Source: an uncultured Alcanivorax sp. (GTDB lineage Bacteria > Pseudomonadota > Gammaproteobacteria > Pseudomonadales > Alcanivoracaceae). Taken from it: a stretch of DNA of 64,000 bases. Under the pieces are notes generated by a model. That model had not been told where the DNA came from, did no database searches, and worked only from the letters and a program-made list of their open reading frames with translations. Position numbers and translations under genes: made by a program. Shown piece by piece: positions 5,334 to 60,808 of this stretch; the stretch's first letter is position 1, and every line of letters begins with the position of its first letter. Where the stretch lies: assembly GCF_947258575.1 (NCBI RefSeq), contig NZ_CAMYIV010000002.1:310001-374000 (forward strand). Direction: 5' to 3'.

Positions 5334-5368
5334 CAAGTGTCAGGTGTCCGGCAGCAAGTGTCCGGCGG
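5334..5368. repeat. Heptamer array, five 7-bp units (liuD-aacS gap)
   Basis: Five contiguous units on the plus strand: CAAGTGT, CAGGTGT, CCGGCAG, CAAGTGT, CCGGCGG. Units 1 and 4 are identical; units 3 and 5 differ at one base. It lies in the 87-base gap between liuD and aacS. It is a single-orientation example of a repeat type seen at several other loci here. Confidence 0.7.
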
Positions 5369-5410
5369 TTTCAATCAGCTCGGTAATACGGCCGGATGGC
5401 CGCGACTGTC

Positions 5411-7360
5411 TCAAGCCTCAGCGGTCTCTTCAAATTCCACCAGCAAGGTGCCTTCGCTGACGCTGTCGCCGACGGCCACATGAAAATCATGGACTGTCCC
5501 CGGCACCGTAGCGCGCAGGGTGTGCTCCATCTTCATGGCCTCCAGTGTAATCACCGCATCGCCAGCAGCAACGGTATCGCCGGCCGACACGTGCAGGGCC
5601 ACGATAGTGCCGCTCATGGGCGCGATGAAGCCGGCTTCTTCGTCGTGCCGGGCACTCTCACGGCTGGGGTTCAATGTGACCGCACGGGCCTGGCCGGCCA
5701 CGAACAACAGCAGGGTGTTGTCATCCTTGCGGGCATAGCGTGCGCGCAGACCGTTGTTACCCCAGTGCAGGTTGATGGTCTGCGCATCCATTGTCGCAAC
5801 AAGGGGGGCCTGCTTGTCGCCCACAGACGCGGAGCCATCTTGTTCGCGGACCGTGATCAGGTCGCCATCGACCTGAAGCAGGGTTTGCCGGAAACGTCGG
5901 CCCAGCGGCCGCCAGCCCTGCAGGCTTTGCCAGGGGGAATCGCCGGTGTTGTCGGTGGCGAATACCTGGCTGGCAGCCAGGGCCAGCAGCTCGGGGGCCG
6001 TCTGCGTGGCCTCCAGCAGTTGCGGGCGGTGTTCCAGAAGACGGGTATCCAGTTCGCCACCGGCAAAGGCTGCGTCGTTGAGTACCCGGTGCAGGAAAGG
6101 GGCATTGTGATGGATGCCGCTCAGTTCCAGGGCTTCCAGAGCCGTGATCAGTTTCTGGCGGGCCTCATTGCGTGACGCGCCATGGCAGATCAATTTGGCG
6201 ATCATGGGATCATAATGGTCGTCTACCCGATCGCCATTTTCATAACCGGCATCCACCCGGGCCACTTCATGGGGCCAGCGCAGATGGCTGAGCAGGCCGG
6301 AGGAGGGCAGGAATCCCTGCTCCGGATTTTCCGCGTAGAGACGCACTTCCATGGCGTGGCCGTGACGCTCGATCTGATGCTGCGCTTTGGGCAGCGGTTC
6401 GCCGGCGGCGACGGCGAGCTGCCAGGCAACCAGGTCTTCGCCGGTAATCATTTCCGTCACCGGGTGCTCTACCTGCAGACGCGTGTTCATTTCCATGAAG
6501 TAGAACTGGCCATCGGGACCGTAGAGGAACTCGACGGTGCCGGCACCGCGATAATCAATGGCCTTGGCCGCTTGAACTGCGGCGTTGCCAAAGGCGTCCC
6601 GGGTGGCCTCATCCAGGCCAGGTGCCGGGGCTTCCTCAATGATTTTCTGATGGCGACGCTGTACCGAACAGTCGCGCTCGAAAAGGTGTACGGCGTTGCC
6701 GTGATTGTCGGCGAATACCTGCACTTCCACATGGCGAGCCGTGGGCAGATAGCGCTCCAGCAGTACCCGGTCATCGCCGAAGGCACCGCGGGCTTCGCGG
6801 CGTGCTGCCGCCAGCGCTTCGGAGAACTCGCCGGCGTTGTTGACCACACGCATGCCCTTGCCGCCACCGCCGGCCACCGCCTTGATCAGAAGCGGGAAAC
6901 CTACCTGCTCACTGGCACGAACCAGGTCGTCATCACTGGCGCCTTCTTCGTCGAAACCGGGCAATACCGGCACACCGCTGGTTGCCATCAATTGCCGGGC
7001 GGCGGCCTTGTCGCCCATGACGTCGATGGCGCGGGCATTAGGCCCGACAAAAATGATGCCGGCGTTTTCGCAGGCGGCGGCAAAGGCAGTGTTCTCGGAA
7101 AGGAATCCGTAACCCGGGTGAATGGCATCGGCGCCGGTATCCTTGGCGGCGGCGATGACCTTGTCGATGACCAGGTAGCTTTCCCGCGCCGGGGCCGGAC
7201 CCAGACAGACCGCCTGATCCGCTTCACGCACATGGGGCAGGGTGGCGTCGGCCTCGGAGTAGACCGCCACGGTGGCAATACCCTGCTGGTGGCAGGTGCG
7301 GATAATACGCCGGGCAATTTCGCCACGGTTGGCGATCAGGAGTTTTTTTATCTGTGCCAT
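5411..7360 (-). CDS. liuD: 3-methylcrotonyl-CoA carboxylase alpha (biotin-carrying) subunit
   Basis: Biotin carboxylase plus biotin carrier subunit of methylcrotonyl-CoA carboxylase, which converts 3-methylcrotonyl-CoA to 3-methylglutaconyl-CoA in leucine catabolism. Domains in order: biotin carboxylase N-domain (KKLLIANRGEIARRI), ATP-grasp with the glycine-rich loop KAVAGGGGKGM (about 160-171), biotin carboxylase C-domain, a linker, and a C-terminal biotinyl domain with the biotinylation motif EAMKMEH (Lys about 609). At 649 residues it has the expected size. The operon also holds the carboxyltransferase (liuB) and the next enzyme (liuC), which favours MCC over acetyl-, propionyl- or geranyl-CoA carboxylase. 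Confidence 0.93.
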   Translation of the reverse strand: MAQIKKLLIANRGEIARRIIRTCHQQGIATVAVYSEADATLPHVREADQAVCLGPAPARESYLVIDKVIAAAKDTGADAIHPGYGFLSENTAFAAACENAGIIFVGPNARAIDVMGDKAAARQLMATSGVPVLPGFDEEGASDDDLVRASEQVGFPLLIKAVAGGGGKGMRVVNNAGEFSEALAAARREARGAFGDDRVLLERYLPTARHVEVQVFADNHGNAVHLFERDCSVQRRHQKIIEEAPAPGLDEATRDAFGNAAVQAAKAIDYRGAGTVEFLYGPDGQFYFMEMNTRLQVEHPVTEMITGEDLVAWQLAVAAGEPLPKAQHQIERHGHAMEVRLYAENPEQGFLPSSGLLSHLRWPHEVARVDAGYENGDRVDDHYDPMIAKLICHGASRNEARQKLITALEALELSGIHHNAPFLHRVLNDAAFAGGELDTRLLEHRPQLLEATQTAPELLALAASQVFATDNTGDSPWQSLQGWRPLGRRFRQTLLQVDGDLITVREQDGSASVGDKQAPLVATMDAQTINLHWGNNGLRARYARKDDNTLLLFVAGQARAVTLNPSRESARHDEEAGFIAPMSGTIVALHVSAGDTVAAGDAVITLEAMKMEHTLRATVPGTVHDFHVAVGDSVSEGTLLVEFEETAEA

Positions 7361-7378
7361 GTTGTTGCCTTTGTCCTG

Positions 7379-7445
7379 CCGCAGGAGCGTCGCCGGTGGC
7401 GCGATTCCGGCGTGGGTTGCCGCGCCGCCAGCGACGCTCCTGCGG
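7379..7445. repeat. REP-like palindrome between liuC and liuD
   Basis: CCGCAGGAGCGTCGC (7379-7393) and its exact reverse complement (7431-7445) are continued inward by 10 bases with two mismatches, giving a stem of about 25 bp around a 17-base loop. The AGGAGCG core resembles the REP family of pseudomonads and the elements near 38.2 and 48.0 kb. It fills nearly all of the 93-base gap inside the operon. Confidence 0.75.
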
Positions 7446-7453
7446 ATAGTGGG

Positions 7454-8227
7454 TCAGATCCAGTTCGCTGTTCGTTTTTCCAGAAAGGCGCTCAGTCCCT
7501 CCTGGCCTTCTTCGCCGGTACGCAGCCTGGCGATCAGGTTGGCGGTGTCGTTGAGCATGCTCTGACCGATTGGGCCGTCACTGACGCGGGCGATCAGGTT
7601 GCGTGCTTCGATCTGGGCACGGGGGCCGGCGCTGAGCAGGGCGGTGATGAGGTTGCTGACCGCCTCATCCAGTTCGCTCTCCGGTACCACTTCATGGGCA
7701 AGCCCAAGCGCGACTGCCTTACTGGCAGGAATGACCTCGGCCGTCATGAAATAGCGATTGGCCTGCCGGGCGCCCATGGCGCGCACCACATAGGGGCTGA
7801 TCACCGCCGGTACAATGCCCAGTTTTACCTCGCTGAGGCAGAAGCGGGCATTGTCGGCAGCCACCGCCATGTCGGCGGCGCAGATCAGGCCCAGCGCGCC
7901 GCCAAAGGCCGCGCCCTGCACCCGGGCGATGACAGGTTTGGGGCACTGGTCGATAGCCTGCATCAGCCGCGCCAGTTTCAGTGCATCGTCGCGGTTCTGT
8001 TGCGCATCCAGTTTGCCCATGGCGCGCATCCAGTTCAGGTCTGCACCGGCGGAGAAATGCTTGCCCGTGGCCTGAAGCACCACAATGCGCACGCTGTCAT
8101 CGTTACCGGCTTTTTCAAAGGCCTCGGTGAGCGAGGCGATAATGGTGTCGTCGAAGGCGTTGCGCTTGTCCGGATTATCCAGAGTGATTTGCGCCACACG
8201 GTCTTTGATCTGTGTCGTTACGCTCAT
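7454..8227 (-). CDS. liuC: Methylglutaconyl-CoA hydratase (enoyl-CoA hydratase family)
   Basis: Hydrates 3-methylglutaconyl-CoA to HMG-CoA. The 257 residues form a single crotonase domain: oxyanion-hole segments SAGADLNWMRAMG and QGAAFGGALGLICAADMAVA, and the catalytic-region SEVKLGIVPAVISPYV. General fold assignment is certain. The specific substrate is inferred from its place between the two MCC subunit genes and from the LNWM sequence after SAGAD, which is common in LiuC/AtuE-type hydratases. It starts at ATG 8227 and is flanked on both sides by palindromic repeats rather than by tight coupling. Confidence 0.88.
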   Translation of the reverse strand: MSVTTQIKDRVAQITLDNPDKRNAFDDTIIASLTEAFEKAGNDDSVRIVVLQATGKHFSAGADLNWMRAMGKLDAQQNRDDALKLARLMQAIDQCPKPVIARVQGAAFGGALGLICAADMAVAADNARFCLSEVKLGIVPAVISPYVVRAMGARQANRYFMTAEVIPASKAVALGLAHEVVPESELDEAVSNLITALLSAGPRAQIEARNLIARVSDGPIGQSMLNDTANLIARLRTGEEGQEGLSAFLEKRTANWI

Positions 8228-8247
8228 GTTATACGTCCGATGTTCTC

Positions 8248-8328
8248 GTAGGGTGCACTGAGCCTAGGGCGAACTGCACCGTTACGGCGTTGGATGGTGC
8301 AGTTCGCCTTAGGCTCAGTGCACCCTAC
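8248..8328. repeat. Long palindrome, GTAGGGTG family
   Basis: The 33 bases at 8248-8280 are the reverse complement of 8296-8328 with one mismatch, around a 15-base loop. Both ends begin GTAGGGTGCACTGAGCCTA. A related, more diverged element lies at 44310-44408. It occupies the liuB-liuC gap and would form a very stable mRNA hairpin. Confidence 0.85.
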
Positions 8329-8336
8329 TTGTGGTC

Positions 8337-8364
8337 TTTGCTTGCCGCGTGAAGCGTGCAAGTA
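8337..8364 (-). repeat. Short heptamer array downstream of liuB
   Basis: Read on the minus strand just after the liuB stop: TACTTGC, ACGCTTC, ACGCGGC, AAGCAAA, four 7-bp units sharing an A-x-x-x-x-C type pattern. The ACGCTTC unit also occurs downstream of the SDR gene at 39.26 kb. A weak member of the heptamer class. Confidence 0.45.
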
Positions 8365-8372
8365 TCTCTTAA

Positions 8373-10003: not shown

Positions 10004-10070
10004 ACCACAGATGGCACAGAGCACACAGAGTAAAAAGATTCTTCTCAGTGAACGCTGTGCTCTTTGTGGT
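10004..10070. repeat. Inverted pair of heptamer arrays (liuA-liuB gap)
   Basis: Left arm, plus strand: ACCACAG, ATGGCAC, AGAGCAC, ACAGAGT (10004-10031). Right arm, minus strand: ACCACAA, AGAGCAC, AGCGTTC (10070-10050). The arms are inverted and share units, so the region can fold into a hairpin. It begins about 10 bases after the liuA stop. Confidence 0.7.
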
Positions 10071-10080
10071 AAATCATCTT

Positions 10081-11635: not shown

Positions 11636-11641
11636 GGTAAA

Positions 11642-27122: not shown

Positions 27123-27798
27123 TGGCGACTGGCTCGCTCTGTGGGTAGGGGTCAAACTGGCAGTGGTTACCACCCTCATCCTGCTGCTGGTATGCACGCC
27201 GCTGGCCTGGTGGTTGGCCCGCCGTCGTTTGCCCGGGCAGGCGCTACTGGAAGCCTTGCTGGCCCTGCCTCTGGTGTTGCCGCCGTCGGTGCTGGGATTT
27301 TATCTGCTGATCGGGCTGGGACCGAATGGGCCGGGCGGCTGGCTGGCACAATGGGGCGGTGTCCGTTCCCTGGCGTTCAGTTTTACCGGCCTGGTGATTG
27401 GATCTTTGGTCTACTCGCTGCCCTTTGTCCTGCAACCCCTCAAGAGCGCCTTTGCGGCCATTGAGACACGGCAACTGGATATGGCGGCGGTCTCTGGTGC
27501 CCGGCCCATGGATCGTTTTTTCTCGCTGGTGATTCCCCAGGCGCGGCATGGCTATGCCAGTGCGGTGATTCTCGGTATTGCGCATACCCTCGGGGAATTT
27601 GGTGTGGTGCTGATGATCGGTGGCAGCCTGGCCGGGGAAACCCGGGTTGCCTCCGTGGCTCTTTATGAGCATGTGGAGGCGGGGGACTACGCCAGTGCGC
27701 ATCGGTTGGCAGCGGTGCTGCTGGTGGCGTCTGTGTTGATGCTGTGGGCTCTGTTTCGCTGGCAACGAAAGCAGCAGAGCACCGGGGTGATGCCATGA
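27109..27798 (+). CDS. modB: Molybdate ABC transporter permease
   Basis: Inner membrane permease of the molybdate importer, about 229 residues and five or six TM helices. The cytoplasmic EAA loop that contacts the ATPase is visible ([19 protein letters not shown]), followed by the characteristic [21 protein letters not shown] segment of ModB. Three ATGs (27097, 27109, 27112) are possible; 27109 is preferred because GAGG sits 6 bases upstream. The gene overlaps modA upstream and modC downstream (ATGA), so all three are made together. Confidence 0.92.
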
Positions 27799-28844
27799 GT
27801 CTGACATTCTCTCTGTCTGGCCAGGTGGGGCCATGTCGTTTGCAGGCGCAGGCGCAACTTGCTGCCAATGGTGTGACCGTTCTGTTCGGTCCTTCCGGGT
27901 CTGGTAAGAGCACGCTGCTGAGAATGCTGGCCGGGCTCCAGGATTGCGATGGCGAGATTCGCTTCGGTGATCAGCTCTGGCAAACCGACGACGCCACGCT
28001 GCCGCCCTGGCAGCGTCCCCTGGGCATGATGTTTCAGGAGCCGACCCTGTTTCGCCATTTGAGTGTGCGCGGCAATCTGGACTATGTGGTGAAACGTCGG
28101 GGAGCAGCAGGGGACCTGGACAGCGTGGTAAGTCAGACGCGTATTGAGGGTTTGCTGGGGCGTTCCGTGCAGACACTTTCCGGGGGCGAGGCTCAGCGGG
28201 TGGCGCTGGCTAGAGCGTTACTGGCCGGACCGGAGCTGCTGTTACTGGATGAACCCCTGTCGGCGCTGGATCACGGTCATAAGCAGGAACTGCTGAAGAT
28301 GATCAGTGACATCGCCAGACAGGTACCGGTGATCTATGTCACCCATGATCTGGATGAGCTGCTGACCTTGTCGCGGCAAGTCTGGCTGATGGAGCAGGGA
28401 CGTATCGTGGCGCGGGGCAAGGCTCACGAAGAGCTGGCCCGGCTGGATGGGCCGCTGGCACAGCGTGGCGATGCCACGGCCTTGTTGTACGGTGAACTGG
28501 GGGATTATGACAACCGGGATCACCTGCAGGCGGTGACCGTTGCACAGCAGACATTCTGGCTACCGGCTGCGCAGCCCGTGGCTGGCGAACAGCCGGTACG
28601 ACTTCGCATCGCTGCCCGGGATGTGAGCCTGTGTCGTCAGGCGCCGCAGGATTCCAGCATTCTCAATATCCATCCGGTGCAGGTGGCTGCTTTGCGCGAA
28701 GTAGGGCCGGGACAGGCTGTGGTACAGCTGGCTCTGGGAGACCAACGGTTGTTGGCTCGCATCTCCAGCCGCTCCGCCCGCGAACTTGAGGTGTTCCCGG
28801 GGACGCGACTTTATGCGCAGGTAAAGGCGGTGGCGCTGGGGTGA
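27795..28844 (+). CDS. modC: Molybdate ABC transporter ATP-binding protein
   Basis: ATPase of the molybdate importer, 349 residues. Walker [11 protein letters not shown] (about 32-41), Q-loop MMFQEPTLF, signature [15 protein letters not shown], Walker [13 protein letters not shown] and the switch His (YVTHDLDE) are all intact. A C-terminal TOBE/Mop-like regulatory domain (about 285-349, [13 protein letters not shown]) is typical of ModC. ATG 27795 overlaps the modB stop; an upstream in-frame ATG inside modB is rejected. The transcript ends in a repeat-flanked hairpin. Confidence 0.94.
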
Positions 28845-28848: not shown

Positions 28849-29005
28849 AAAGCTACAAGCTACAAGCCTCAAGCTAGAACGTGGCTCAATAATGTTGGTA
28901 TTTGAAACACAAGAGGCCACGCCCGGGTCCTTGGCGCGGCCTCTTGCGTTGGAAACCTTACATTCGTTTCTCGTGTTGTAGCTTGAGGCTTGTCGCTTGA
29001 AGCTG
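28849..29005. repeat. Inverted heptamer arrays flanking a terminator (modC / Lgt-like gap)
   Basis: Left arm, plus strand: AAAGCTA, CAAGCTA, CAAGCCT, CAAGCTA (28849-28876), 4 bases after the modC stop. Right arm, minus strand: CAAGCGA, CAAGCCT, CAAGCTA and flanking units (about 28998-28976), abutting the stop of the convergent gene. A hairpin at 28910-28946 lies between the arms, so the whole gap is one nested palindrome. Confidence 0.8.
28910..28946. terminator. Bidirectional hairpin, modC / Lgt-like
   Basis: CAAGAGGCCACGCC (28910-28923) pairs with GGCGCGGCCTCTTG (28933-28946) with one mismatch. U-runs are weak on both strands. The stem is nearly the same as in the glcB terminator at 42.65 kb, so the hairpin itself is repeated. 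Confidence 0.75.
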
Positions 29006-29006: not shown

Positions 29007-30116
29007 TCAAGCCGCCGCGTTTTCCTTTGCCTGGCAGCCTTCCTCGTCACAGCCCGCCTGGCTGCGCCAGTCTGCGGCGAGACCGAAGCGGAGTTCGCCG
29101 GTGGTGATGGTGCTGGTGCCGGAGAAGAAGAACATGGCCACGGTGATGACCTGCAGGCTGAGAATAACCCCCGGTGACCAGAGGGCTCCCAGGCCGGCAG
29201 CAAGATCCGGCGACAGGCCCGCATGGTCCGGCAGGGCGAGGCTGATGGCAATGCCGTAGAGTGCGGCCAGCAATGCCATCATCTGGTATACCGAGAACAG
29301 TCTGCTGCCGCCACGATAGTCTGCCCGCAACGTTTCTGAATATACCCGCCACAACTGACTTCCTACCAGGCTGAGGGCAAAAGCCAGGGCGAATTGGCGG
29401 TGGAAGAATAGGGCACTGCAGACCAACGCGAGGGCGGTATAAACCACACAGGTGACCGCCTGGATGGGGATCACCTTGACGGCTTCCATCTCCCCGGCAA
29501 AGGCAATCTTTTTGGTCTTGCCGATAAACACATGATTCAGGGTGCAGAACAGGCGCTGGGCCCAACGCGGTGAGTGCCGCAGCGCCTTACCGTAGCAACA
29601 GCCAAAGCTGATGCACGCCAGTCGTCCGATGCCTTCGCCCAGCACATAGGCAATCGACATGGCCGCCAGCATGGGCAGAATCGGTAAAGCAGTCTGCCAC
29701 CAGTGCTGGCTGGCCAGATCCGCCAGCCACAGGAACAGGGGGGCGATAATAATGCCGACAAAGCTGGCACCGCCGACGGTGAAGCCATGGCGGTTTTTTT
29801 CCACCACGGTGGCAATGATCTTGGCGGCGGGCAGGCAGATTGCCAGTGTCCCCAGCGTCAGTATCAGTGCGGTGCCCAGCGACACACCGGCGGAAGCGGT
29901 TAATAGAATAAAGCAGGCAACCCCTAGCCCGCCGGCGATACCGGTGAAGAGGCCGTAGAAGGTCAGGTTCAGTCCCTGCCAGGAGCCATCATGGTTTTTC
30001 TTCAGGGGTAACGAGGCCACGAATTGCCAGCGCTCTTCGGGCAGATGACGGAACAGAAAGCGAAAACCTGCCCCGAAGATCAGGGCACACCCCAACAGAA
30101 ACAGATCCACAGCCAT
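29007..30116 (-). CDS. Prolipoprotein diacylglyceryl transferase-like membrane protein
   Basis: A 369-residue polytopic membrane protein with about 8-9 hydrophobic helices. The motif GEGIGRLACISFGCCYGKALRHSP (split: GEGIGRLACIS then FGCCYGK) resembles the G-x-GR-x-G(N/C) region of Lgt, which transfers diacylglycerol to lipoprotein Cys. However, true Lgt has GRxGNFxNxE, while this has a Cys-Cys pair, as in a divergent Lgt-like group. It is therefore probably a paralogue with another lipid-transfer role. AAGGA lies 7 bases before ATG 30116. It is a single gene, convergent with modC. Confidence 0.65.
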   Translation of the reverse strand: MAVDLFLLGCALIFGAGFRFLFRHLPEERWQFVASLPLKKNHDGSWQGLNLTFYGLFTGIAGGLGVACFILLTASAGVSLGTALILTLGTLAICLPAAKIIATVVEKNRHGFTVGGASFVGIIIAPLFLWLADLASQHWWQTALPILPMLAAMSIAYVLGEGIGRLACISFGCCYGKALRHSPRWAQRLFCTLNHVFIGKTKKIAFAGEMEAVKVIPIQAVTCVVYTALALVCSALFFHRQFALAFALSLVGSQLWRVYSETLRADYRGGSRLFSVYQMMALLAALYGIAISLALPDHAGLSPDLAAGLGALWSPGVILSLQVITVAMFFFSGTSTITTGELRFGLAADWRSQAGCDEEGCQAKENAAA

Positions 30117-36999: not shown

Positions 37000-38193
37000 A
37001 TGATCAATCTGGAAATTCCGGCCAAGCTCGAACAGGTCCAGCAGATGGCCCAGCAACTGGCAGCGGGCGTCTTTCGTCCCATTGCCCGTAAATACGACGC
37101 CATCGAGCACTGCGACACCCCGGAAGAACTGAAACCGGTGGCACAGATGATGGCGGCCATGCCTCGCGGCAGCGGCGGCAAGGGCGGTGGCGACGAGATC
37201 AAGAACGGTAGCAACATGACCGGCATCCTGGCGGTGGAAGCCATGTGCTGGGGAGATGTGGGGCTCATGCTCTCCGTTCCCGGCTCCGGGCTTGGCAATG
37301 CGGCCGTCATGGCCGTTGGCACCCCGGAGCAGAAAGAAAAATACGGCAAGCTCTACTGTGCCATGGCGATCACCGAGCCGGGTGCGGGTTCGGATTCTGC
37401 CGCCGTCAGCACCACCGCCGAACTGGACGGTGACGAGTGGGAGCTCAATGGCGAGAAGATCTACTGCACCGCCGGTCAGCGCTGCGACGCGGTGGTGGTC
37501 TGGGCGACTCTGGACAAGTCCCTGGGCAAGGCGGCGATCAAATCCTTTATCGTCCCCCGTGATAACCCGGGCCTGCAGCTGGTACGGGTGGAAGACAAAA
37601 TGGGGCTGCGGGTGTCCGATACGGCGGCCCTGTCGTTCAACAACTGCCGCATTCCCAAGGATCATATCCTTGGTTCGGCAGAGATTGGCGATACCGAAGA
37701 GGCCCGTAAAAAGGCCTTCGGCGGGGTAATGCAGACCTTTGATAACACCCGTCCCCAGGTGGCCGCCATGGCATTGGGTGTGGCCCGGGCGGCACTTGAA
37801 ATAACCAGGGAAACACTTGAAAAAGAAGGTGTTGAGGCTGATTTCTCGAAACAACCTTATAACTCTACGGCGCGTGAGCTGGAGCTGTACCGGCTGGAAG
37901 CCGACCTGGAAGCCGCCCGGCTGATGACCCTGAAAGCCGCCTGGATGGCCGATAATGGTCAACCAAACTCCCGGGAGGCATCCATGTGCAAGGCCAAAGC
38001 CGGGCGCATGGGCAATGAGGTCACTCTCAAGTGCGTCGCTCTGTGTGGCGAACTGGGCTATTCCGAGCGATCCCTGCTGGAAAAACTCGCCAGGGACTCC
38101 AAGATCATCGATATCTTCGAGGGCACTCAGCAGATCCAGCAGTTGATCGTGGCGCGGCACCTGCTTGGGCTGTCTTCCAAAGAGCTGAAATAG
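37000..38193 (+). CDS. Acyl-CoA dehydrogenase, catalytic subunit of a probable heteromer
   Basis: A 397-residue acyl-CoA dehydrogenase with an AITEPGAGSDSAAVSTT middle domain and the catalytic Glu374 in IIDIFEGTQQIQ. In place of the usual R-x-FG...Q flavin-contact motif it has a divergent stretch (EGVEADFSKQPYNSTARE), so its own FAD site looks incomplete. It starts 9 bases after the preceding subunit stop, with GGAGAGAG upstream, and is surely co-transcribed. Together they resemble alpha2beta2 acyl-CoA dehydrogenases known from sterol-degrading actinobacteria. The acyl substrate is unknown; the upstream PsrA-like site suggests fatty acyl chains. Confidence 0.87.
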   Translation: MINLEIPAKLEQVQQMAQQLAAGVFRPIARKYDAIEHCDTPEELKPVAQMMAAMPRGSGGKGGGDEIKNGSNMTGILAVEAMCWGDVGLMLSVPGSGLGNAAVMAVGTPEQKEKYGKLYCAMAITEPGAGSDSAAVSTTAELDGDEWELNGEKIYCTAGQRCDAVVVWATLDKSLGKAAIKSFIVPRDNPGLQLVRVEDKMGLRVSDTAALSFNNCRIPKDHILGSAEIGDTEEARKKAFGGVMQTFDNTRPQVAAMALGVARAALEITRETLEKEGVEADFSKQPYNSTARELELYRLEADLEAARLMTLKAAWMADNGQPNSREASMCKAKAGRMGNEVTLKCVALCGELGYSERSLLEKLARDSKIIDIFEGTQQIQQLIVARHLLGLSSKELK

Positions 38194-38205
38194 CTAGCGA
38201 CAAGG

Positions 38206-38368
38206 CCGCTGTAGGAGCGCCTCTCGAGGCGCGAACTGGCCGTGGCAAGTTGTCTTCTAGCTTACAGACTAACCTGCATACAACTGGCGAGCCCTGAAAC
38301 GCCTGATCGTCCCGCGGACGATTTCCGCGCAAGCGCGGTTCGCGCCTCGAGAGGCGCTCCTACAGCGG
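38206..38368. repeat. REPIN-like element: two REP units in inverted orientation
   Basis: The 30 bases at 38206-38235 (starting CCGCTGTAGGAGCGCC) are the exact reverse complement of 38339-38368. Each arm also contains its own GCGCCT-CTCG-AGGCGC hairpin. The right half, including GCCTGATCG and GATTTCC, is shared with the element at 47.95-48.11 kb. It resembles GTAGGAGCG-type REPs of pseudomonads. No RAYT transposase is in the window. Confidence 0.85.
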
Positions 38369-38460
38369 CTGCGTAGTTAGCGTATTTGCTGTTTCAGCCT
38401 TTGGATTTCTCGGCCATGGCATTACCCTTGCGGTGTCTTTGACTTCAAGGAGCGTGTGAG

Positions 38461-40427: not shown

Positions 40428-42590
40428 ATGACCGATCGTATTCAGAAGGGTAGCCTCGAAATCGCTGCCGAACTCCATGATCTGGTAGTCAACGAGATTG
40501 CGCCGGGCACCGGCGTGGACCCGGAACACTTCTGGGCCGAGCTGGAAAGCATCCTCAAGGACCTGGCGCCCAAGAACAAGGCGCTGCTGGAAAAGCGTGA
40601 AACCATCCAGGCGCAGCTGGACGAGTGGTACAAGGCCCGTAAAGGCCAGGCCATCGATATGGTCGAGTACAAGCAGTTCCTGACCGAGATCGGTTACCTG
40701 CTTCCGGAAGGCGAGGACTTCAAGGTCACCACCGAGAATGTGGATGACGAGATCGGCACCATCGCCGGCCCGCAGCTGGTGGTACCGGTGAAGAATGCCC
40801 GCTTCGCCCTGAATGCCGCCAATGCGCGTTGGGGCAGCCTGTATGACGCCCTCTACGGCACCGATGTGATTTCTGATGAAGGCGGCGCCGAGAAAGGCGG
40901 TGCTTACAACCCCAAGCGTGGCGCCAAGGTAATTGCCTGGGCCCGTAACTTCCTGGACAGCTACTTCCCGCTGGCCTCTGGTTCCCACAAAGACAGCACC
41001 GGTTACGCCATTGTTGATGGCAAACTGGAAGTCTCTCTGGGCGCTGAAAAATCCGGCCTGAAAGACGAAGGCCAGCTGCAGGGTTATGTGGGCGAGGCTT
41101 CTGCGCCGTCCGGTATCCTGCTCAAGCACAACAACCTGCATGCAGAAATCCAGATCGATGCCAGCCACCCGATTGGCGCGGACGATGCGGCCAACATGAA
41201 GGATGTGCTGCTGGAATCGGCCATCACCACCATCCAGGATTGCGAAGACTCCGTGGCTGCCGTGGATGCGGAAGACAAGGTTGAGGTGTACCGCAACTGG
41301 GCCGGCCTGATGAAGGGCGATCTGCAGGAGTCCTTCCAGAAAGGCGGCAAGACCATGACCCGTTCCATGAACGGTGACCGTGAGTACACCGCCCTGGACG
41401 GCTCCACCCTGACCCTGCACGGCCGCTCCCTGCTGCTGGTGCGGAACGTGGGTCACCTGATGACCAACCCGGCCATCCTCATGAACGGGGAAGAAACCCC
41501 GGAAGGCATCATGGACGGCATGGTCACCGTGCTGGCCGGCATCCACGACCTGAAGAAGCTCAACAAGCTGAGCAACAGCCGCACCGGTTCCATGTACATC
41601 GTGAAGCCGAAGATGCACGGTCCGGAAGAAGTGGCCTTCGCCGTTGAGCTGTTCGAGCGTGTCGAGAAAGCCCTGGGCCTGGAAAAAAATAGCCTGAAGA
41701 TCGGCATCATGGATGAAGAGCGTCGCACTACCGTAAACCTGAAGGAGTGTATCCGTCAGGCGAAGGAGCGTGTGATCTTCATCAACACCGGCTTCCTGGA
41801 CCGTACCGGTGACGAAATGCATACCTCCATGGAAGCGGGCCCCATGGCACGCAAGGGCGACATGAAAGCCCTGCCGTGGATCAACGCCTACGAAGACTGG
41901 AACGTGGATATCGGTCTGGAATGCGGCCTGCCGGGTCACGCCCAGATTGGTAAGGGCATGTGGCCGAAGCCGGACGAAATGGCAGAGATGATGGCCACCA
42001 AGGCCGGTCACCCGAAAGCCGGCGCCAACTGCGCCTGGGTGCCGTCCCCGACGGCTGCGACCCTGCACGTTACCCACTATCACGAGATTAACGTGGCAGA
42101 AGTCCAGAAAGAGCTGGCTAACCGCAAGCGTGCCTCCCTGGACGACATCCTCACCGTGCCGTTGCTGACCCGTGAGCTGTCCGCTGAAGAAATCCAGCAG
42201 GAGCTGGATAACAACGCCCAAGGCATTCTGGGTTACATGGTTCGCTGGATCGACAGTGGTGTGGGTTGCTCCAAGGTGCCGGACATCAATGATGTGGGCC
42301 TGATGGAAGACCGCGCCACCCTGCGGATTTCCAGCCAGCACGTAACCAACTGGCTGCACCACGGCATCACCAATCAAGAACAGGTGACCGAAACCCTGAA
42401 GCGCATGGCAGAAGTGGTGGATCGTCAGAACGCCAACGACCCCACCTATGTGCCCATGGCCAAGGATTTTGACAACTCCGTGGCCTTCCAGGCAGCGATG
42501 GAGCTGGTGTTCGAGGGTTGCTCCCAGCCCAGCGGTTACACCGAGCCGGTCCTGCACCGTCGTCGCCGTGAGCTGAAGAACAACGGTTAA
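40428..42590 (+). CDS. glcB: Malate synthase G
   Basis: Condenses glyoxylate with acetyl-CoA to malate, completing the glyoxylate shunt needed for growth on acetate, fatty acids and alkanes. The 720-residue length and sequence ([21 protein letters not shown] split across the active site, [25 protein letters not shown]) mark the G isoform rather than the shorter A form. The acetyl-CoA-site Cys and catalytic Asp fall in the C-terminal third (RASLDDIL). A 226-base leader precedes it. GTTAACA, the first unit of a heptamer array, contains the stop codon TAA. Confidence 0.95.
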
Positions 42591-42748
42591 CAGTGAATAA
42601 TTAACAGTTAACAGCGACGCGTTCTCGTGTCGCAGTTCTTGAAAGCAAAGAGGCCGCGCCCAATCGTTGGGCGCGGCCTCTTGCGTTTTAATCCCTGCCT
42701 GTTGCTCGCCGCGCAACTATGAACTATTCACTGTTAACTATTCACTGA
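42590..42748. repeat. Inverted heptamer arrays flanking a terminator (glcB / secretin-like gap)
   Basis: Left arm, plus strand: ACAGTGA, ATAATTA, ACAGTTA, ACAGCGA (42590-42617). Right arm, minus strand: TCAGTGA, ATAGTTA, ACAGTGA, ATAGTTC, ATAGTTG (42748-42714). The left array begins inside the glcB stop codon; the right array contains the last codons and TAG stop of the convergent gene. A 16-bp terminator stem lies between them. Confidence 0.88.
42646..42689. terminator. Bidirectional terminator, glcB / secretin-like
   Basis: AAGAGGCCGCGCCCAA (42648-42663), loop TCG, TTGGGCGCGGCCTCTT (42667-42682): a perfect 16-bp stem followed by GCGTTTTAA on the plus strand. The AAGAGGCC(A/G)CGCC arm is shared with the hairpin at 28.9 kb. 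Confidence 0.88.
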
Positions 42749-43514
42749 TCTCCACCATGACTTCCAACGGCAGGTTGACCTGCTGGCTGCGGCGTTGCAC
42801 CCCGCCAAGCCCTCGCTGGTCCTGTTGTCGGTCTACACTAATGCTGCCCATCGGCTGCCAGACTCCAGGTTGTACCCGCAGGGTGGTGCCGCTGGACTGG
42901 GTATTGGCCAGGCCCGGGCCGCCGGCCTGGTCATAGCGCTGGCTGATCTGCAGTACCACGTCGCCGTCCGGGGTCAGTTGCGGAATTACCTGGATACCCT
43001 GTTGCAGCTCAGCAAGCACGGTGCCGTAATAACCGCCGCCGAGAGCGAGCAGGGTGCCCTGACTGATATGGGCCGGGTAACCGCTGAGGGTGCGGATCTG
43101 GTAATGGTCTTGTTGGCTGCCGTGCTGCCGGCTTTGTTCAATGCGGATATCAGCGGAGACGCCGCCAGGAATGCGGCCCTGGATACGGGTATCCACGCCG
43201 CTGCGCTGGCCGCTGCTGGTGCCTTGACGACGAAGGTGAACAACCAGAGCGCAGGGCGTGGCTTCCAGGCTGCCCAGCACCCCTTCCAGCTCGGCCATAT
43301 TGTTGTCGGTGGTACGCACGATCAACTTGCCCTGATAGGCCCGTACGCTGCCGCCCGGGGCCAGTAGGGGTTCGATCACCGACACCAGTGCCGGCGCATC
43401 CGGGCGCGGCAATACGTGGATGCGCATGGTATCTGCCACGGCCTGTCCGATCGTCCCCAGCAGCAGGCTGAGTAGCAGAACGAGATGTCGGCTGCGGTGT
43501 ATGGGTTGCATCAT
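42738..43514 (-). CDS. Exported secretin-like protein (NolW/N-domain type)
   Basis: A 258-residue exported protein. After a signal peptide (HLVLLLSLLLGTIGQAVA) comes a NolW-like secretin N-domain (ALVSVIEPLLAPGGSVRAYQGKL region, then IVRTTDNNMAELEGVLGSL). A beta-rich remainder with GG..YYGTVLAEL and DGDVVLQISQRYDQ recalls the start of a secretin domain. It is far shorter than a pore-forming secretin, and no type II/IV secretion gene is nearby, so it is probably an orphan accessory. ATG 43514 has GGAG 6 bases upstream. Its ISE-stop end is encoded within the heptamer array. Confidence 0.65.
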   Translation of the reverse strand: MMQPIHRSRHLVLLLSLLLGTIGQAVADTMRIHVLPRPDAPALVSVIEPLLAPGGSVRAYQGKLIVRTTDNNMAELEGVLGSLEATPCALVVHLRRQGTSSGQRSGVDTRIQGRIPGGVSADIRIEQSRQHGSQQDHYQIRTLSGYPAHISQGTLLALGGGYYGTVLAELQQGIQVIPQLTPDGDVVLQISQRYDQAGGPGLANTQSSGTTLRVQPGVWQPMGSISVDRQQDQRGLGGVQRRSQQVNLPLEVMVEISE

Positions 43515-43621
43515 GATCGACTCCAGCACGCTTTTTCTCACTCTATCATGGCGGCTACATTGCGCATCTCTACGGGATCACAGGCATAATGGCCGCCGCC
43601 TGAAGTTGCCCCAGAGTTGCC

Positions 43622-47948: not shown

Positions 47949-48113
47949 CCTGTAGGAGCCCCGCTTGAGGGGCGAACCGAGCGAAGCGAGGCGACAGCGC
48001 GAGAGGGTTGCGACAAGCGTTCCGGAGATTTGCAGGGCTCTGATTCGCCTGATCGCCCTTTGGGGGATTTCCACGCTACCGGGCGGTTCGCGGCTCGAGC
48101 GCCGCTCCTACAG
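47949..48113. repeat. REPIN-like element between hflD and purB
   Basis: CTGTAGGAGCCCCGCTTGAG (from 47950) and the inverted CTCGAGCGCCGCTCCTACAG (to 48113) are REP units facing each other. The right half (CGCCTGATCG, GGGATTTCC, GGCGGTTCGCG) matches the element at 38.2 kb, so they are two copies of one element about 165 bases long. Confidence 0.83.
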
Positions 48114-48130
48114 GTGACTTTAAGAAAGCC

Positions 48131-56245: not shown

Positions 56246-56272
56246 TCAGCCAGATACCCACTCATGGTGCTA

Positions 56273-56536
56273 TCAGGAAGGCGTCGACTGTTTTTCAGCG
56301 GCGCCTTCTTCGTTATCGGCTTCCACGTATTCCCCATCAGCACGAAGATTGACGGCATGAAAGCCCTTGTTGGCCGGCTGAACCTCGTATTCCACGGGTT
56401 GGCCTGCCTTCAGGCTCTTGTAGCCCTCCATCTGGATATAGGAGTAGTGGACGAACAGATCCTCTCCCCCTTCATCTGGCCTGACAAACCCGTACCCCTT
56501 GGCATTGTTAAACCACTTTACTCGTCCCGTTGCCAT
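56273..56536 (-). CDS. cspD: Cold-shock-domain protein CspD
   Basis: An 87-residue single cold-shock domain: MATGRVKWFNNAKGYGFVRPDEGGEDLFVHYSYI (shown in part), with RNP1 (KGYGFV) and RNP2 (LFVHY), then an acidic C-terminal tail (EYVEADNEEGAAEK). CspD in E. coli inhibits replication by binding single-stranded DNA in stationary phase. The divergent cspD-clpS-clpA order is conserved in gammaproteobacteria. ATG 56536 is supported by GGAAGG. It is convergent with icd, only 27 bases apart. Confidence 0.92.
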   Translation of the reverse strand: MATGRVKWFNNAKGYGFVRPDEGGEDLFVHYSYIQMEGYKSLKAGQPVEYEVQPANKGFHAVNLRADGEYVEADNEEGAAEKQSTPS

Positions 56537-56761
56537 GGTCCTTCCCTCTTGCCTATCCAATGGCTGTCATTGTTTGTTGTTATCCCCGGGCCGACTGCTA
56601 CGGTAAACTGGTAACCGGAGTTATCGTGCAACTTTTAAACATGCGTCGCAGGGTGTCAAGCCCGTGAAATATTTACGGGCAGGGATTGAAAAATCCGTTA
56701 CCGCCCATCATTTCTTCATTGCCTGCTGACGCCAGCAGGGTTACAACGGTTTTGAGGCATT

Positions 56762-57148
56762 ATGAACTGGCAACAACAAGGGCACTCGGTGATGGCTCAC
56801 GGAAAAGATGATCTCCGTAACGGGCCTGCAGATTCCCCTTCCGACCCGGATCGCCATGGTGATCTGGCGGTGGAAGAGGCCAGGCCGAAGTTGAAGCCCC
56901 CCTCCATGTACAAGGTGTTGATGCTCAATGATGACTACACCCCCATGGATTTTGTGGTAGAGATACTGGAAGACTTCTTCAATCTGGGCCGCGAGCAGGC
57001 AACCCGTGTGATGCTTACGGTCCATACTGAAGGAAAGGCGGTGTGCGGGGTGTATCCCCAGGATATCGCCGAAACGAAAGCCACTCAGGTGGTGGAATAT
57101 GCCCGTGAAAATCAGCATCCGCTGATGTGTCAGGTGGAGAAGGCCTGA
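56762..57148 (+). CDS. clpS: ATP-dependent Clp protease adaptor ClpS
   Basis: N-recognin that binds proteins with N-terminal Leu, Phe, Trp or Tyr and hands them to ClpAP. The 128 residues comprise a disordered N-terminal extension (about 1-45, which enters the ClpA pore) and the core. The core has [18 protein letters not shown] (Asn and Asp that grip the alpha-amino group), [16 protein letters not shown] (substrate His) and [17 protein letters not shown] is 6 bases before ATG 56762; an ATG at 56792 is a weaker choice. It is followed by clpA after 47 bases. Confidence 0.95.
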
Positions 57149-57195
57149 TTCAGGCCCCCCAGCTGAATGTCCGGGTACTGCAGTGAGGTAGCCTT

Positions 57196-59460
57196 ATGCT
57201 CAGCAAAGAACTGGAAATGACGCTCAACGAAGCGTTCCGCCACGCACGTAGCCACCGGCATGAATTCATGACCGTTGAGCATTTGCTGCTGGCGCTGCTG
57301 GATAACGAGGCGGCCGTCGAGGTTCTGCGTGCCTGTAGCGCAGATCTGGAGGAACTGCGCGATTCGTTAAGCCAGTTTATCGAGGATTCCACGCCGTTAT
57401 TGCCGGAAAGCGACCCGGACCGCGATACCCAGCCAACCCTGGGCTTCCAGCGGGTGCTGCAGCGTGCGGTGTTCAGCGTGCAATCTTCCGGCAAGAAAGA
57501 AGTGACCGGCGCCAATGTGGTGGTGGCCATCTTCAATGAGCAGGAAAGCCAGGCAGTGTATTTCCTCAACTGTCAGGATATCCATCGCCTGGATGTGGTG
57601 AATTTCATTGCTCACGGCATCTCCCAGGTGCAGGACGCGGAGCCGTCCATGGAGGCGGAACAGGACATGGAGAACGGCGGTGAGAGCGCGCCAGCCAGTG
57701 CCCTGGAAAACTACGCCAGCAACCTGAATGAACTGGCCCGCGCTGATCGCATTGATCCGCTGGTGGGTCGGGCTTTCGAGATTGAGCGGGCAGCGCAGAT
57801 TCTCTGCCGTCGCCGCAAGAACAACCCGCTGCTGGTCGGCGAGCCCGGTGTCGGCAAAACGGCCATCGCCGAAGGGCTGGCCCGCATGATCGTGGAAGAG
57901 AAGGTACCGGCACCGCTGCTGGATGCCACCGTCTACTCGCTGGATCTGGGCGCATTGCTGGCTGGCACCAAGTACCGGGGCGATTTCGAGAAGCGCCTGA
58001 AATCGGTACTGGCGGAGCTCAAGAAAGACCCGAACTCGATTCTCTTTATCGATGAGATTCACACCATCATTGGCGCGGGCGCGGCCTCCGGTGGCGTTAT
58101 GGATGCCTCCAATCTGCTCAAACCGATGCTGGCCAGCGGTGAACTCAAGTGCATGGGCTCGACCACCTTCCAGGAATACCGGGGCGTGTTCGAGAAGGAC
58201 CGTGCCTTGTCACGTCGCTTCCAGAAGATCGATGTGGTGGAGCCCTCCGTGGAAGATACCGTGGGGATTCTCAAGGGGCTGAAAAGTCGTTTCGAGAAGC
58301 ATCATGATGTGAGCTACAGCGATGCGGCCCTGAAAGCGGCGGCGGAACTGAGTGCCCGTTATATCAATGATCGCTACCTGCCTGACAAGGCCATCGACGT
58401 AATCGACGAGGTAGGGGCCTGGCAGCGCCTGCGCCCGGAAGATCAGCGCAAGCACACCATCGACGAATCCGATGTGGAAGACATGGTGGCGAAGATTGCC
58501 CGCATTCCTCCCAAGCAGGTGTCCTCGTCTGACAAGGAGCTGCTGCGCAACCTGGAGCGGGACCTGAAGATGACCGTGTTCGGCCAGGAAGAGGCCATCG
58601 ACACCATCTCGGCAGCCATCAAGTTGTCCCGTGCCGGCCTCAAGGGTGAGCACAAGCCCATTGGTAGCTTCATGTTTGCCGGCCCCACCGGCGTCGGCAA
58701 GACCGAAGTTAGCCGTCAGCTTGCCCGGGCTCTCGGTGTCGAACTGGTGCGGTTTGACATGTCCGAGTACATGGAGCGTCACACCGTGAGCCGGTTGATT
58801 GGTGCGCCGCCAGGGTATGTGGGTTACGACCAGGGCGGGCTGTTGACTGAAGCAGTGACCAAGACGCCGCACTGTGTGCTGTTGCTGGACGAAATCGAGA
58901 AGGCCCACCCTGAGGTGTTCAATATCCTGTTGCAGGTGATGGATAACGCCACCCTGACCGATAACAACGGTCGCAAGGCGGACTTCCGTAATGTGATTTT
59001 GATCATGACCACCAACGCCGGCGCAGAGGTCCTCAACAAGCGTTCTATCGGCTTTACCGAGCAGGACAACAGCACGGACGGTATGGAGGTGCTGAAGAAG
59101 GTATTCACGCCCGAATTCCGCAATCGCCTGGATGGCACCATCCAGTTTCTGCCGCTCACCAGCGAGGTTATTCTCGGTGTGGTGGACAAATTCCTGGTGG
59201 AACTGCAGGCGCAGCTGGACGAGAAGGGTGTGGTGCTCAACGTGGACAAGGCCGCCCGAACCTGGCTGGCAGACAAGGGCTACGACAAGGATATGGGTGC
59301 CCGCCCCATGGCACGCCTGATCCAGGAGCAGCTCAAGAAGCCGCTGGCGGAAAAATTGCTGTTCGGCGAATTGTCCGAGAACGGTGGGCAGGTCGATGTG
59401 ACCGAGAAGGATGGCCAGCTGTCGCTCACCGTAAAGGCGGCGGAACCGGAGCCAGCATAA
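57196..59460 (+). CDS. clpA: ATP-dependent Clp protease ATPase subunit ClpA
   Basis: AAA+ unfoldase of ClpAP, 754 residues. N-domain (about 1-140) binding ClpS; D1 with Walker [11 protein letters not shown] (about 214-223), Walker [14 protein letters not shown]2 with Walker [11 protein letters not shown] (about 495-504), Walker [13 protein letters not shown]; and the IGF loop in RSIGFTEQ (about 618-620) that docks on ClpP. It lacks the coiled-coil middle domain of ClpB. clpP is not in the window. Its mRNA ends in the heptamer/terminator element. Confidence 0.96.
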
Positions 59461-59466
59461 AGAGAA

Positions 59467-59586
59467 GCAGTGAAAAGTTAACAGTGAATAGTTAATAGCT
59501 AAGAAAAAACAAAAATACCCCCGGCTCTGTGAAAAGACGGGGGTATTTTTTTAGCTGTTAACTGTTACTTATTAACTGTTAACTGC
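59467..59586. repeat. Symmetric five-plus-five heptamer arrays flanking a terminator (clpA/infA)
   Basis: Left, plus strand, 59467-59501: GCAGTGA, AAAGTTA, ACAGTGA, ATAGTTA, ATAGCTA. Right, minus strand, 59586-59552: GCAGTTA, ACAGTTA, ATAAGTA, ACAGTTA, ACAGCTA. Both arms have five units, begin with a GCAG unit and end with an AGCTA unit beside the terminator at 59511-59552. It is the clearest example of the class. Confidence 0.92.
59511..59552. terminator. Bidirectional terminator, clpA / infA
   Basis: AAAAATACCCCCG (59511-59523) pairs with CGGGGGTATTTTT (59538-59550) over a 14-base loop, with A- and T-runs at both outer ends. It serves the convergent clpA and infA. Confidence 0.93.
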
Positions 59587-59593
59587 CTTTCAC

Positions 59594-59812
59594 TTATTTC
59601 ATGCGGAACGTAATACGGCCCTTGCTCAGGTCATAGGGGGACATTTCCACCTTGACCCGGTCGCCGGTGAGAATGCGGATATAGAATTTACGCATCTTCC
59701 CGGAGATATGGGCGGTAATAACATGACCGTTGTCCAGCTTCACACGAAACATCGTGTTTGGCAGGGTTTCAACGATGACACCTTCTAGTTCAATCTGCTC
59801 TTCTTTCGCCAT
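59594..59812 (-). CDS. infA: Translation initiation factor IF-1
   Basis: A 72-residue S1/OB-fold protein that binds the ribosomal A site during initiation. [20 protein letters not shown] at the start, then [21 protein letters not shown] and [18 protein letters not shown], an essentially universal IF-1 sequence of full length. AAGG lies about 9 bases before the ATG. It is last in the aat-bpt-infA direction, with 133 bases separating it from bpt. Confidence 0.97.
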
Positions 59813-59945
59813 CCAACGAATACCTTGGGTTACCGGCTATTAGCGGGCGCAATTGTGCCGGAAAAGACGGCTGGCTGCAAAAGAAGTTGGGAAGCGGTTA
59901 AAAAGCGGGTTATTCGGCTCATTGCAGGGGGCCTGGAGAAGCGAT

Positions 59946-60659
59946 TCAGTCCGGGTCGAACTCTTTCCAGGCACCACTGCGGAGAATTTCCAGGGGGCGG
60001 TACTGGCTCTTGTATTCCATCTTTTGGCATTGATGAATCCAGTAGCCCAGATACAGGTAGGGAAGTTCCAGGTGCTGGCAGTGGCGGATCTGCCAGAGCA
60101 GCGCCATTACTCCCAGGCTGCGCTCAGGGAGCTGCGGATCAAAGAAGGTGTAGACCGCAGAAAGGCCGTCTTCCAGTTGGTCGGTGACCGCCACGGCTAG
60201 CAAGGTTTCGCCCTGCCGGAAGCAGTAGAAATGGGTGTCTGCCCAGTCACAGGTCAGAAAGTTGGTGAACTGCTCCTCTGAAGGGGGATACATATCCCCG
60301 TCACCATGACGTTGATCTATGTAGGCTGCGTAGAGATTGTAGAACTCGCGGGTGTAGCGAGCCGGCTCCCGGTGGACGGTGAGATCCTGATTGGTCTTCT
60401 CGATCCGCCGGTGGCGGCGACGGGGACGGAAATCCGCCACCCTCACCCGGGCCGGGATGCAGGCGTTGCAGCCTTCGCAGTGGGGGCGATACAGATAATC
60501 ACCGCTACGACGAAACCCCAGCAAGCTCAATTCACTGTAGAGCTCTGGTGACAGTTTGGCCTGTGGGTCCACAAACAGCGTAGAGGCCTGGCGGTCCTCG
60601 AGGTAACTGCAGCTGTGGGCCGGGGTGCGGAAAAAGCGCAGCGTGGACAGATCAGTCAT
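59946..60659 (-). CDS. bpt: Aspartate/glutamate leucyltransferase (Bpt, arginyl-transferase family)
   Basis: Transfers Leu from Leu-tRNA to proteins with N-terminal Asp or Glu, creating ClpS degrons. The 237 residues show HSCSYLEDRQASTLFVDP and GDYLYRPHCEGCNACIPARV, the Cys motifs of the ATE/Bpt family, and YLYLGYWIHQCQKMEYKSQYRPLE near the C-terminus (split GYWIHQC, MEYKSQYRP). Bacterial members of this size, adjacent to aat and infA, are Bpt rather than true arginyltransferases. Confidence 0.9.
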   Translation of the reverse strand: MTDLSTLRFFRTPAHSCSYLEDRQASTLFVDPQAKLSPELYSELSLLGFRRSGDYLYRPHCEGCNACIPARVRVADFRPRRRHRRIEKTNQDLTVHREPARYTREFYNLYAAYIDQRHGDGDMYPPSEEQFTNFLTCDWADTHFYCFRQGETLLAVAVTDQLEDGLSAVYTFFDPQLPERSLGVMALLWQIRHCQHLELPYLYLGYWIHQCQKMEYKSQYRPLEILRSGAWKEFDPD

Positions 60660-60682
60660 GCCTTCAGTGTAGAGGAGAAATA

Positions 60683-60808
60683 ACGCCAGACGCCAGATGC
60701 GTGAGGCAGGAAGCAGAAATCACCGAAAGGCGTTGATGCCTGCTGGCATGGAGTCTCTGGTGTCGCATCATTGGCGTCAGTCGTCAGTCGTCAGTCGTCA
60801 GTCGTCAG
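60683..60808. repeat. Two five-unit heptamer arrays around the aat 3' end
   Basis: Left, 60683-60717: ACGCCAG, ACGCCAG, ATGCGTG, AGGCAGG, AAGCAGA. Right, 60774-60808: GCGTCAG followed by four exact TCGTCAG units. The right array runs into the aat coding end: its last residues (TTDD) and TGA stop are made of the repeat. The two arms are only loosely inverted copies. Confidence 0.85.

Follow-up and report, generated by a model that had tools for sequence, protein, structure and literature searches.

Seven-base repeats are over-represented in bacteria, and polymerase slippage has been proposed as their source (PMC4692102 and earlier work cited there, according to the part of that paper available). 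Paired tandem-repeat sites of classes 1-3, with a GGACCGG heptad family, are known from Geobacter metallireducens (PMC2700814, likewise available in part). Here we characterize heptad arrays in a 64,000-nucleotide stretch (the window) of an uncultured Alcanivorax sp. (contig NZ_CAMYIV010000002.1, positions 310,001 to 374,000, forward strand). Alcanivorax is a marine bacterium that degrades oil. The host genome is 3.5 Mb in size and its nearest named relatives are Alcanivorax, with identity to A. jadensis T9 of 93% for aat, 99% for ate and 99.5% for clpA. A preliminary description of the window had proposed a class of arrays with a constant seven-base period and units that differ from locus to locus, nearly all beginning within about 15 bases of a stop codon. 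From their anatomy and placement, these arrays are mostly the arms of palindromic elements at gene ends.

Heptad arrays and the elements they flank

Arrays were first counted in 656,320 bp of the host genome, made up of the window and 30 further stretches, in which genes were called with a codon-usage script written for the analysis. There were 50 intergenic arrays of period 7 as compared with 1.7 in Markov shuffles. The other periods from 4 to 15 gave 0-5 intergenic arrays each, apart from the harmonic period 14, which gave 38. Harmonic aside, period 7 was the sole enriched short intergenic period in this sample, which bears out a genome-wide class with a fixed period and locus-specific units. 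Among the 49 arrays in gaps between genes, 27 lay 15 nt or less from a stop codon, as compared with a mean of 11.4 and a maximum of 21 in 2000 trials of random placement; two lay that close to a start codon. The proposed proximity to stop codons therefore holds on average, and the arrays are not placed at random relative to genes. In an enlarged own-genome sample of 1,056,320 bp, 93 arrays were found, and 21 stop codons fell inside an array. Five had been given as a frequent unit count; four was commoner by eye in the family defined below, and single arrays reached about 16 units (115 nt). Two contigs of the host assembly, C5 and C10 (L096:1-94 and L101:1-94), start in heptad arrays, as do L100:1-20 and L102:13-32, the arrays at contig starts being of the ACGAGCT and TAGCTTC types. 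Long arrays have therefore probably broken the assembly and been under-counted.

The units had also been described as non-conserved in sequence. They do differ by locus, yet they are related, most stop-adjacent arrays sharing an AG skeleton and falling into a few classes. On the mRNA strand, AG was invariant at one phase in 23 of the 27 stop-adjacent arrays (11.2 expected when the seven columns were permuted), GT in 16 (4.9 expected) and AA in 24 (18.3 expected). In three of the four arrays without an invariant AG, both AA and AG occur at this position; the remaining one is the CTGACGA array of the window, with no AG on the mRNA strand. We distinguished class A (AGTKAAY and relatives), class B (AGCTNCA), class C (AGTTNAA) and rarer classes. 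Most class A units contain TAA or TGA. A role in providing stop codons in all frames was rejected, because the mRNA strand of class B units (AGCTACA) is free of them.

A large subset of the arrays belongs to one dispersed family of about 175 bp. An alignment of 25 copies gave the layout heptad arm, CGCG box, free spacer and hairpin (AAGAGGCCGCGCCCA-n5-TGGGCGCGGCCTCTT), followed by the mirror image. In this family, the commonest one, a stop codon is followed by about four heptads (ARTKRAY or another class), the box, the spacer and the 35-nt hairpin; the second half consists of a spacer, a CGCG box and inverted heptads of like kind, and usually ends with the stop codon of a convergent gene. The CGCG boxes and the hairpin are conserved. 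Spacer identity is near background (0.33 vs 0.26-0.27), and spacer lengths are near constant, at 26-27 and 22-25 nt. The enlarged sample contained 27 strict copies. All but one (26) had at least one flanking period-7 array, and 21 were flanked on both sides. These copies occupied 20 convergent, seven co-directional and no divergent gaps, in a sample where 99 of 584 gaps are convergent (Fisher p 2e-11).

Pairing of neighbouring arrays was assessed with and without a complementarity filter. The filter yielded 36 inverted pairs, all concordant in class, although this is partly built in by the selection. Unfiltered, neighbouring arrays formed 38 pairs, 30 of them inverted, outside-in and of one class. 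Arm-to-arm pairing was predicted in all 32 elements that were folded, namely those of the 36 with a gap of at most 130 nt, which had been chosen for inverted arms. Many inverted pairs flank one hairpin type, and class B arms occur on the same centre as class A arms. Other centres are also flanked by arms, for example a terminator-like hairpin between clpA and infA.

Arrays in the window were assessed with Tandem Repeats Finder (TRF; score 30), by direct reading, and with lag-7 scores compared with shuffles. Of nine loci listed previously, those at 28.9, 42.6, 59.5 and 60.7 kb were upheld. Each has two arrays (28.85-29.00, 42.59-42.75, 59.47-59.59 and 60.68-60.81 kb), and all eight arms gave p(lag 7) <=0.0025 and p <=0.026 for any lag from 3 to 15. 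Three of the four carry inverted arm copies around a hairpin or terminator, a feature absent from the preliminary description. The remaining five had no TRF row of period 7, and a 7-bp array was unsupported at 5.3 kb (any-lag p 0.11; lag-7 p 0.009, borderline), 10.0 kb (0.27; 0.024; best lag 9), 26.2 kb (0.35; 0.029), 39.3 kb (0.46; 0.045) and 8.3 kb (1.0; 0.997). The features of the four supported loci are as follows.

28849-28876, + strand: left heptad arm, class B (AGCTACA AGCTACA AGCCTCA AGC), CAAGCTA type; starts 4 nt past the stop of the ABC-transporter gene 27744-28844 (TRF, sequence, lag test)
28880-28883, no strand: left box CGTG, a variant of CGCG (sequence, copy alignment)
28911-28945, no strand: central family hairpin AAGAGGCCACGCCC...GGCGCGGCCTCTT (inverted-repeat search, copy alignment)
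28976-29004, - strand: right heptad arm, class B, inverted; 90% complementary to the left arm over 30 nt and adjoining the end of the convergent gene 29007-30116 (TRF, inverted-repeat search, lag test)
42586-42614, + strand: left heptad arm, class A (ARTKAAY), TTAACAG/TTCACTG type; contains the stop codon (42588-42590) of the malate synthase G gene 40428-42590 (sequence, lag test)
42648-42682, no strand: central hairpin AAGAGGCCGCGCCCAATCGTTGGGCGCGGCCTCTT (copy alignment)
42710-42713, no strand: right CGCG box (sequence, copy alignment)
42715-42747, - strand: right heptad arm, class A, inverted; extends to the end of the convergent gene 42738-43541 (inverted-repeat search, lag test)
59469-59502, + strand: left heptad arm, class A; 8 nt beyond the clpA stop (gene 57196-59460) (lag test)
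59551-59585, - strand: right heptad arm, class A, inverted; between a terminator-like hairpin (ACCCCC..GGGGGT) and the infA stop (TRF, lag test)
60683-60697, + strand: short heptad array ACGCCAG, upstream of ate (59946-60659, minus strand) (TRF, lag test)
60775-60808, - strand: heptad array CTGACGA (= CGTCAGT) of identical units; contains the stop codon of aat (60791-61513, minus strand) and lies outside the common AG skeleton (TRF, lag test)

The hairpin at 42648-42682 was called terminator-like, with the tail GCGTTTTAAT, as was that at 59.5 kb; the hairpin at 28911-28945 was not. Terminator calls between 42 and 61 kb were about at shuffle level (19 vs 16.3), and no match in the window reached the Rfam gathering score. 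Other palindromes were also noted in the window. A palindrome of 9-base units (ACCACAG..CTCTTTGTGGT) occupies 10006-10072, and a 33-bp inverted repeat of 97% complementarity that starts GTAGGGTGCAC lies at 8248-8328, REP-like and without heptads. Inverted pairs headed CTGTAGGAGC or CGCAGGAGC, at 7379-7445, 38193-38381 and 47949-48114, resemble REP elements; the two weak Y1-transposase matches of the host genome are located elsewhere.

Distribution among genomes

The core of the element was searched with a model, R1, built on 25 core copies. Because the inner ends of arms, mostly of class A, are part of R1, its best hits lean to class A; its counts are per strand among the best 150 candidates scored, and most places count on both strands. 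All 17 Alcanivorax genomes had core matches, with 45 to at least 150 strand-hits each, as did five of 145 genomes sampled from the order: the host, two of four others in the family, and two that were marginal. In a single-contig genome of 3,120,143 bp, core copies were kept and their arms eroded (match of 0.34 at lag 7 vs 0.23-0.28 at other lags, 17 copies), and this genome contained no class A or B 23-mers.

More widely, class A matches occurred in four of 274 genomes of the class, namely the host, G240 (one match), G265 (37) and G267 (145). A reversed class A control matched G143 (60), G070 (three) and G115 (one). G143 may hold heptad arrays of another class, although none was seen in 40 kb. 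The pattern ARTKRAY was present in 13 of 398 genomes of the phylum, with 1-6 matches each except in the host. No period-7 excess was found in 61 loci of other genera (eight arrays in 612 kb), and five genomes of the same order had no arrays in 20-40 kb each. In stretches of G265 and G267 selected for class A matches, there were eight arrays, five lying no more than 15 nt from a stop codon, and two facing pairs. A similar stop-adjacent layout exists in two sampled genomes of other gammaproteobacterial families.

The glcB element had no match in plasmids and the 28.9-kb element none in phages, and a plasmid or phage origin was dropped. In IMG/VR, a class A 23-mer was present in 52 stretches and the reversed control pattern in 95, so class A is not special in that database. 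These 52 contigs, selected for containing an array, held 169 arrays, with 68 within 15 nt of a stop codon, 12 within 15 nt of a start codon, 84 elsewhere and five intragenic; some IMG/VR contigs with arrays may be bacterial. In Flavobacterium ichthyis (L060:1725-1782), intergenic TTAAGAA heptads are followed by CTTTAAAC/CTTCAACC units, and a similar layout may exist in Bacteroidota.

Evolution of the arms and its explanation

Twelve orthologous sites were compared, with both flanks found in A. jadensis for six and in genome G005 for seven. At the 28.85-kb site, G005 has about 23 near-identical units against four in the host, around the same centre; A. jadensis, though closer to the host than G005, has class B arms around a different spacer. 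The aat site has five identical CGTCAGT units in the host and about two in A. jadensis, and the clpA site differs by 14 bp between these two genomes. At glcB the element was present in eight of 13 Alcanivorax genomes (the G004 contig ends 83 nt past the stop). Across the eight, right arms measured 40, 40, 33, 19, 40, 40, 40 and 40 nt and left arms 23, 23, 23, 24, 16, 30, 23 and 31 nt, the differences being 7 nt or a multiple of it; two genomes, which have a different stop codon, are offset by 1 nt. Unit-step length change between relatives was thus seen at the glcB, clpA and 28.85-kb sites. Arms at the L184 site are of class C in the host and of class B in G005; in A. jadensis the site holds a palindrome of 9-mers resembling the one at 10.0 kb. 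The site corresponding to the L087:9811 element in G005 (L219, 988 to about 12778) consists of a left half-element, about 11.7 kb of other DNA and a complete element whose arms are in another dialect, which suggests that an island came in at an element.

Arm sequences differ between species as dialects. The phrase AATTAAT-AGTTAAT-AATGAAT-AATTAAT of G294 and others reads AATTGAT-AGTTGAT-AATGGAT-AATTGAT in G004, AGTTGAC-AGTTGAT-AGTGGAC-AGTTGAC in G009 and AGTTAAC-AGTGAAT-AGTTAAC in the host, the change of dialect hitting the same positions in successive units. Whole genomes hold dialects in different mixtures, with A5/G5 counts of 305/15 in the host, 73/56 in A. jadensis and 9/34 in G004. At glcB, G001 and G011 have the left spacer in common and a different dialect in both arms. 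Whole-element gene conversion is an unlikely cause of the dialects, because the spacers are not homogenized. Arm-limited conversion, a heptad-reading factor, or both could explain the dialects, which are the least explained feature of the family.

Agreement between arms was compared within and between loci, dropping elements without a recognizable box. Kept were 25 of about 28 elements in the host, three of five in G003, seven of nine in G004, two of four in G366, nine of 17 in G292 (outside the permutation) and all fetched copies in the remaining genomes; copies taken from other species were mostly top R1 hits. Arms of the same locus agreed at 0.736 as compared with 0.668 between loci of one genome (82 elements, 13 genomes; 0 of 5000 permutations). 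The effect was clear in the host, where it partly reflects class A vs class B, and in G003, G004 and G009.

The explanation that we favour, to which we give about an even chance, is that the element is a hairpin acting in both directions at gene ends, and that its arms evolve under a pairing constraint, through 7-base slippage and through copying from one arm to the other. The palindromic arms, the near-constant spacing and the position at gene ends speak for a structural module at 3' ends; the 7-base steps and the local agreement of arms speak for arms that arise by slippage and are re-copied from one another. On this explanation the arms would pair when transcribed, or when extruded from supercoiled DNA, bringing the boxes and the central hairpin into one long stem. 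Such a stem could act in both directions at 3' ends, in termination, in 3'-end protection or processing, or in the insulation of convergent genes. The arms would lengthen and shorten by 7-base slippage, and each would be re-copied from the other by way of the palindrome; a locus would then drift as a whole while its arms still pair. Slippage combined with re-copying would hold the period constant and let the units become specific to locus and species. The AG(Y) skeleton that the heptads share would reflect what is required of each of them by remaining selection or by the copying mechanism. The suggestion in the preliminary description of a generating mechanism or a structural role is supported by the class-wide period and the proximity to stop codons, although the idea of a generating mechanism is already in print (PMC4692102, in the part available).

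Several observations weigh against this explanation. The 3,120,143-bp genome keeps cores with eroded arms, indicating that heptads are dispensable there. Under the pairing criterion, 36 of the 93 arrays are partnerless, and all 36 array pairs together (16 convergent, 14 co-directional, three divergent, three unassigned) are less skewed to convergent gaps than the strict copies. Arm agreement is absent or reversed in G001, G008, G294 and G366. Among class A elements of the host, in a partner test pre-selected by complementarity, the true partner was the best of 22 for only two (mean 19.3 vs 17.3 permuted). In L005, L007 and L009, the clpA-infA gap has arms of different classes, the left of GCACGC/AAGC type and the right of TCAACTG or TTAACTG type. 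Finally, covariation in the central stem is weak, with changes on both sides in three of 13 pairs, and the T tract is poor.

A purely mutational origin is possible but clearly less probable. Replication slippage that favours 7-base steps, and that is promoted when stalling or template switching occurs at a terminator palindrome, would build and homogenize arrays in the first DNA past a stop codon, where indels are tolerated, and the heptads would be functionless. The perfect expansions at the aat and 28.85-kb sites, the 7-base steps at glcB, the 14-bp clpA difference and the eroded arms of the 3,120,143-bp genome are all consistent with this, as is the published hypothesis of polymerase-footprint slippage (PMC4692102, available in part). 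It accounts poorly for an AG skeleton common to most stop-adjacent arrays, for AGTGAAT at stops in two other families and for near-constant spacer lengths from arm to hairpin. Moreover, the arm phrase keeps its unit order across dialects, which homogenizing slippage should scramble.

More speculatively, the arms could be a code in 7-base steps, with AG(Y) heptads in mirrored gene-end arms read by a trans-acting factor or by arm-limited copying. We regard this as improbable; if true, such reading would keep many unlinked copies within a species to one dialect, the same change recurring in unit after unit and copy after copy, while internal spacers drift. By analogy with a proposal for the paired arrays of Geobacter, and a little more doubtfully still, each heptad might be a subsite of a trans-acting protein, or of a factor that binds RNA, reading in 7-base steps, with dialects reflecting drift of its specificity. 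The near-constant spacing fits such a factor, and so does the same change in every unit of many unlinked copies, as in the G004 and G294 phrases, with spacers unconserved. Several dialects and classes in one genome, and class B arms on the same centre, do not fit, and no candidate was found, although no systematic search was made. Dps was set aside as a candidate binder, since heptanucleotides were not significant in the available part of PMC5553809.

The least probable explanation, very unlikely in our judgement, is a non-autonomous mobile element of MITE or REP type that inserts at gene ends with heptad arms as terminal repeats: the dispersed family with its copy number in every Alcanivorax genome, the presence or absence at orthologous sites such as glcB and the three different elements in three species at the L184 site would suit it, but the terminal repeats differ between copies in class and dialect, no target-site duplication was seen by eye at the few sites read (no systematic test was made), positions are common to species with about 91% protein identity at glcB, and neither the glcB element in plasmids nor the 28.9-kb element in phages had a match. 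The host genome has one weak Y1-transposase match above the cut-off and one below it; this, and the lack of a GTAG head in the 25 aligned copies as judged by eye, led to the rejection of REP/RAYT. MITE was rejected as well, as constant terminal inverted repeats with target-site duplication were not observed (varying arms; few sites, by eye).

Comparison with described repeats

REP/BIME, ERIC and Correia/NEMIS sequences are dispersed intergenic palindromes of about 100-180 bp that form hairpins in transcripts, as the Alcanivorax element would. To our knowledge, however, none of them has arms made of heptad arrays with units that vary from copy to copy.

Among heptad repeats, the TAACTGA repeats of marine Beggiatoaceae, cyanobacteria and Bacteroidetes also form arrays with 7-nt-step indels between related strains, and their reverse complement in phase, AGTTATC, is close to class A of Alcanivorax; in the available part of the report, in contrast, each genome has one unit, and in the main genome described the arrays lie mostly just upstream of start codons (PMC4679880). 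The GGGAATC repeats of Xanthomonas and the GGGGA(T/C)T repeats of Nostoc resemble the Alcanivorax arrays in being intergenic, often of four units, with some inverted pairs, and in keeping their position between species while length and sequence change (PMC4692102, as far as available). They are G-rich and have been proposed to form quadruplexes (same source), whereas the units in Alcanivorax are not rich in G and lie on either side of a hairpin. Two marks of bacterial heptanucleotide repeats were observed here, intergenic over-representation of period 7 and unit-step length change between relatives.

The Geobacter sites are similar in having units of 7-9 nt in three to five copies, mostly in opposite-strand pairs that are dispersed and whose unit varies by class; dispersed opposite-strand pairing was likewise seen in Alcanivorax, in the 30 of 38 unfiltered neighbouring pairs. 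As described in the accessible part of PMC2700814, the Geobacter pairs lie at variable distance and were proposed as IHF/HU sites. The Alcanivorax element differs in its near-constant spacing, conserved hairpin, mostly convergent genes and dialects among species.

Derivation of all arrays from an already described repeat family, which would have spoken against a new class, found no support in the open literature: no description of the Alcanivorax family, its AG skeleton or its dialects was found there, subscription papers being outside the search. Over-representation of heptads in bacteria is unexplained, and Alcanivorax makes the question testable. Dozens of related copies per genome, with a fixed layout and shifting units, provide replicate loci at which unit change in place, arm-to-arm copying and the constraint on spacing can be compared. 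If the element is indeed a 3'-end module, it would be an unannotated transcript-end signal throughout Alcanivorax. Heptad over-representation and paired short arrays were known; the Alcanivorax family and its dialects are, as far as the open literature shows, new.

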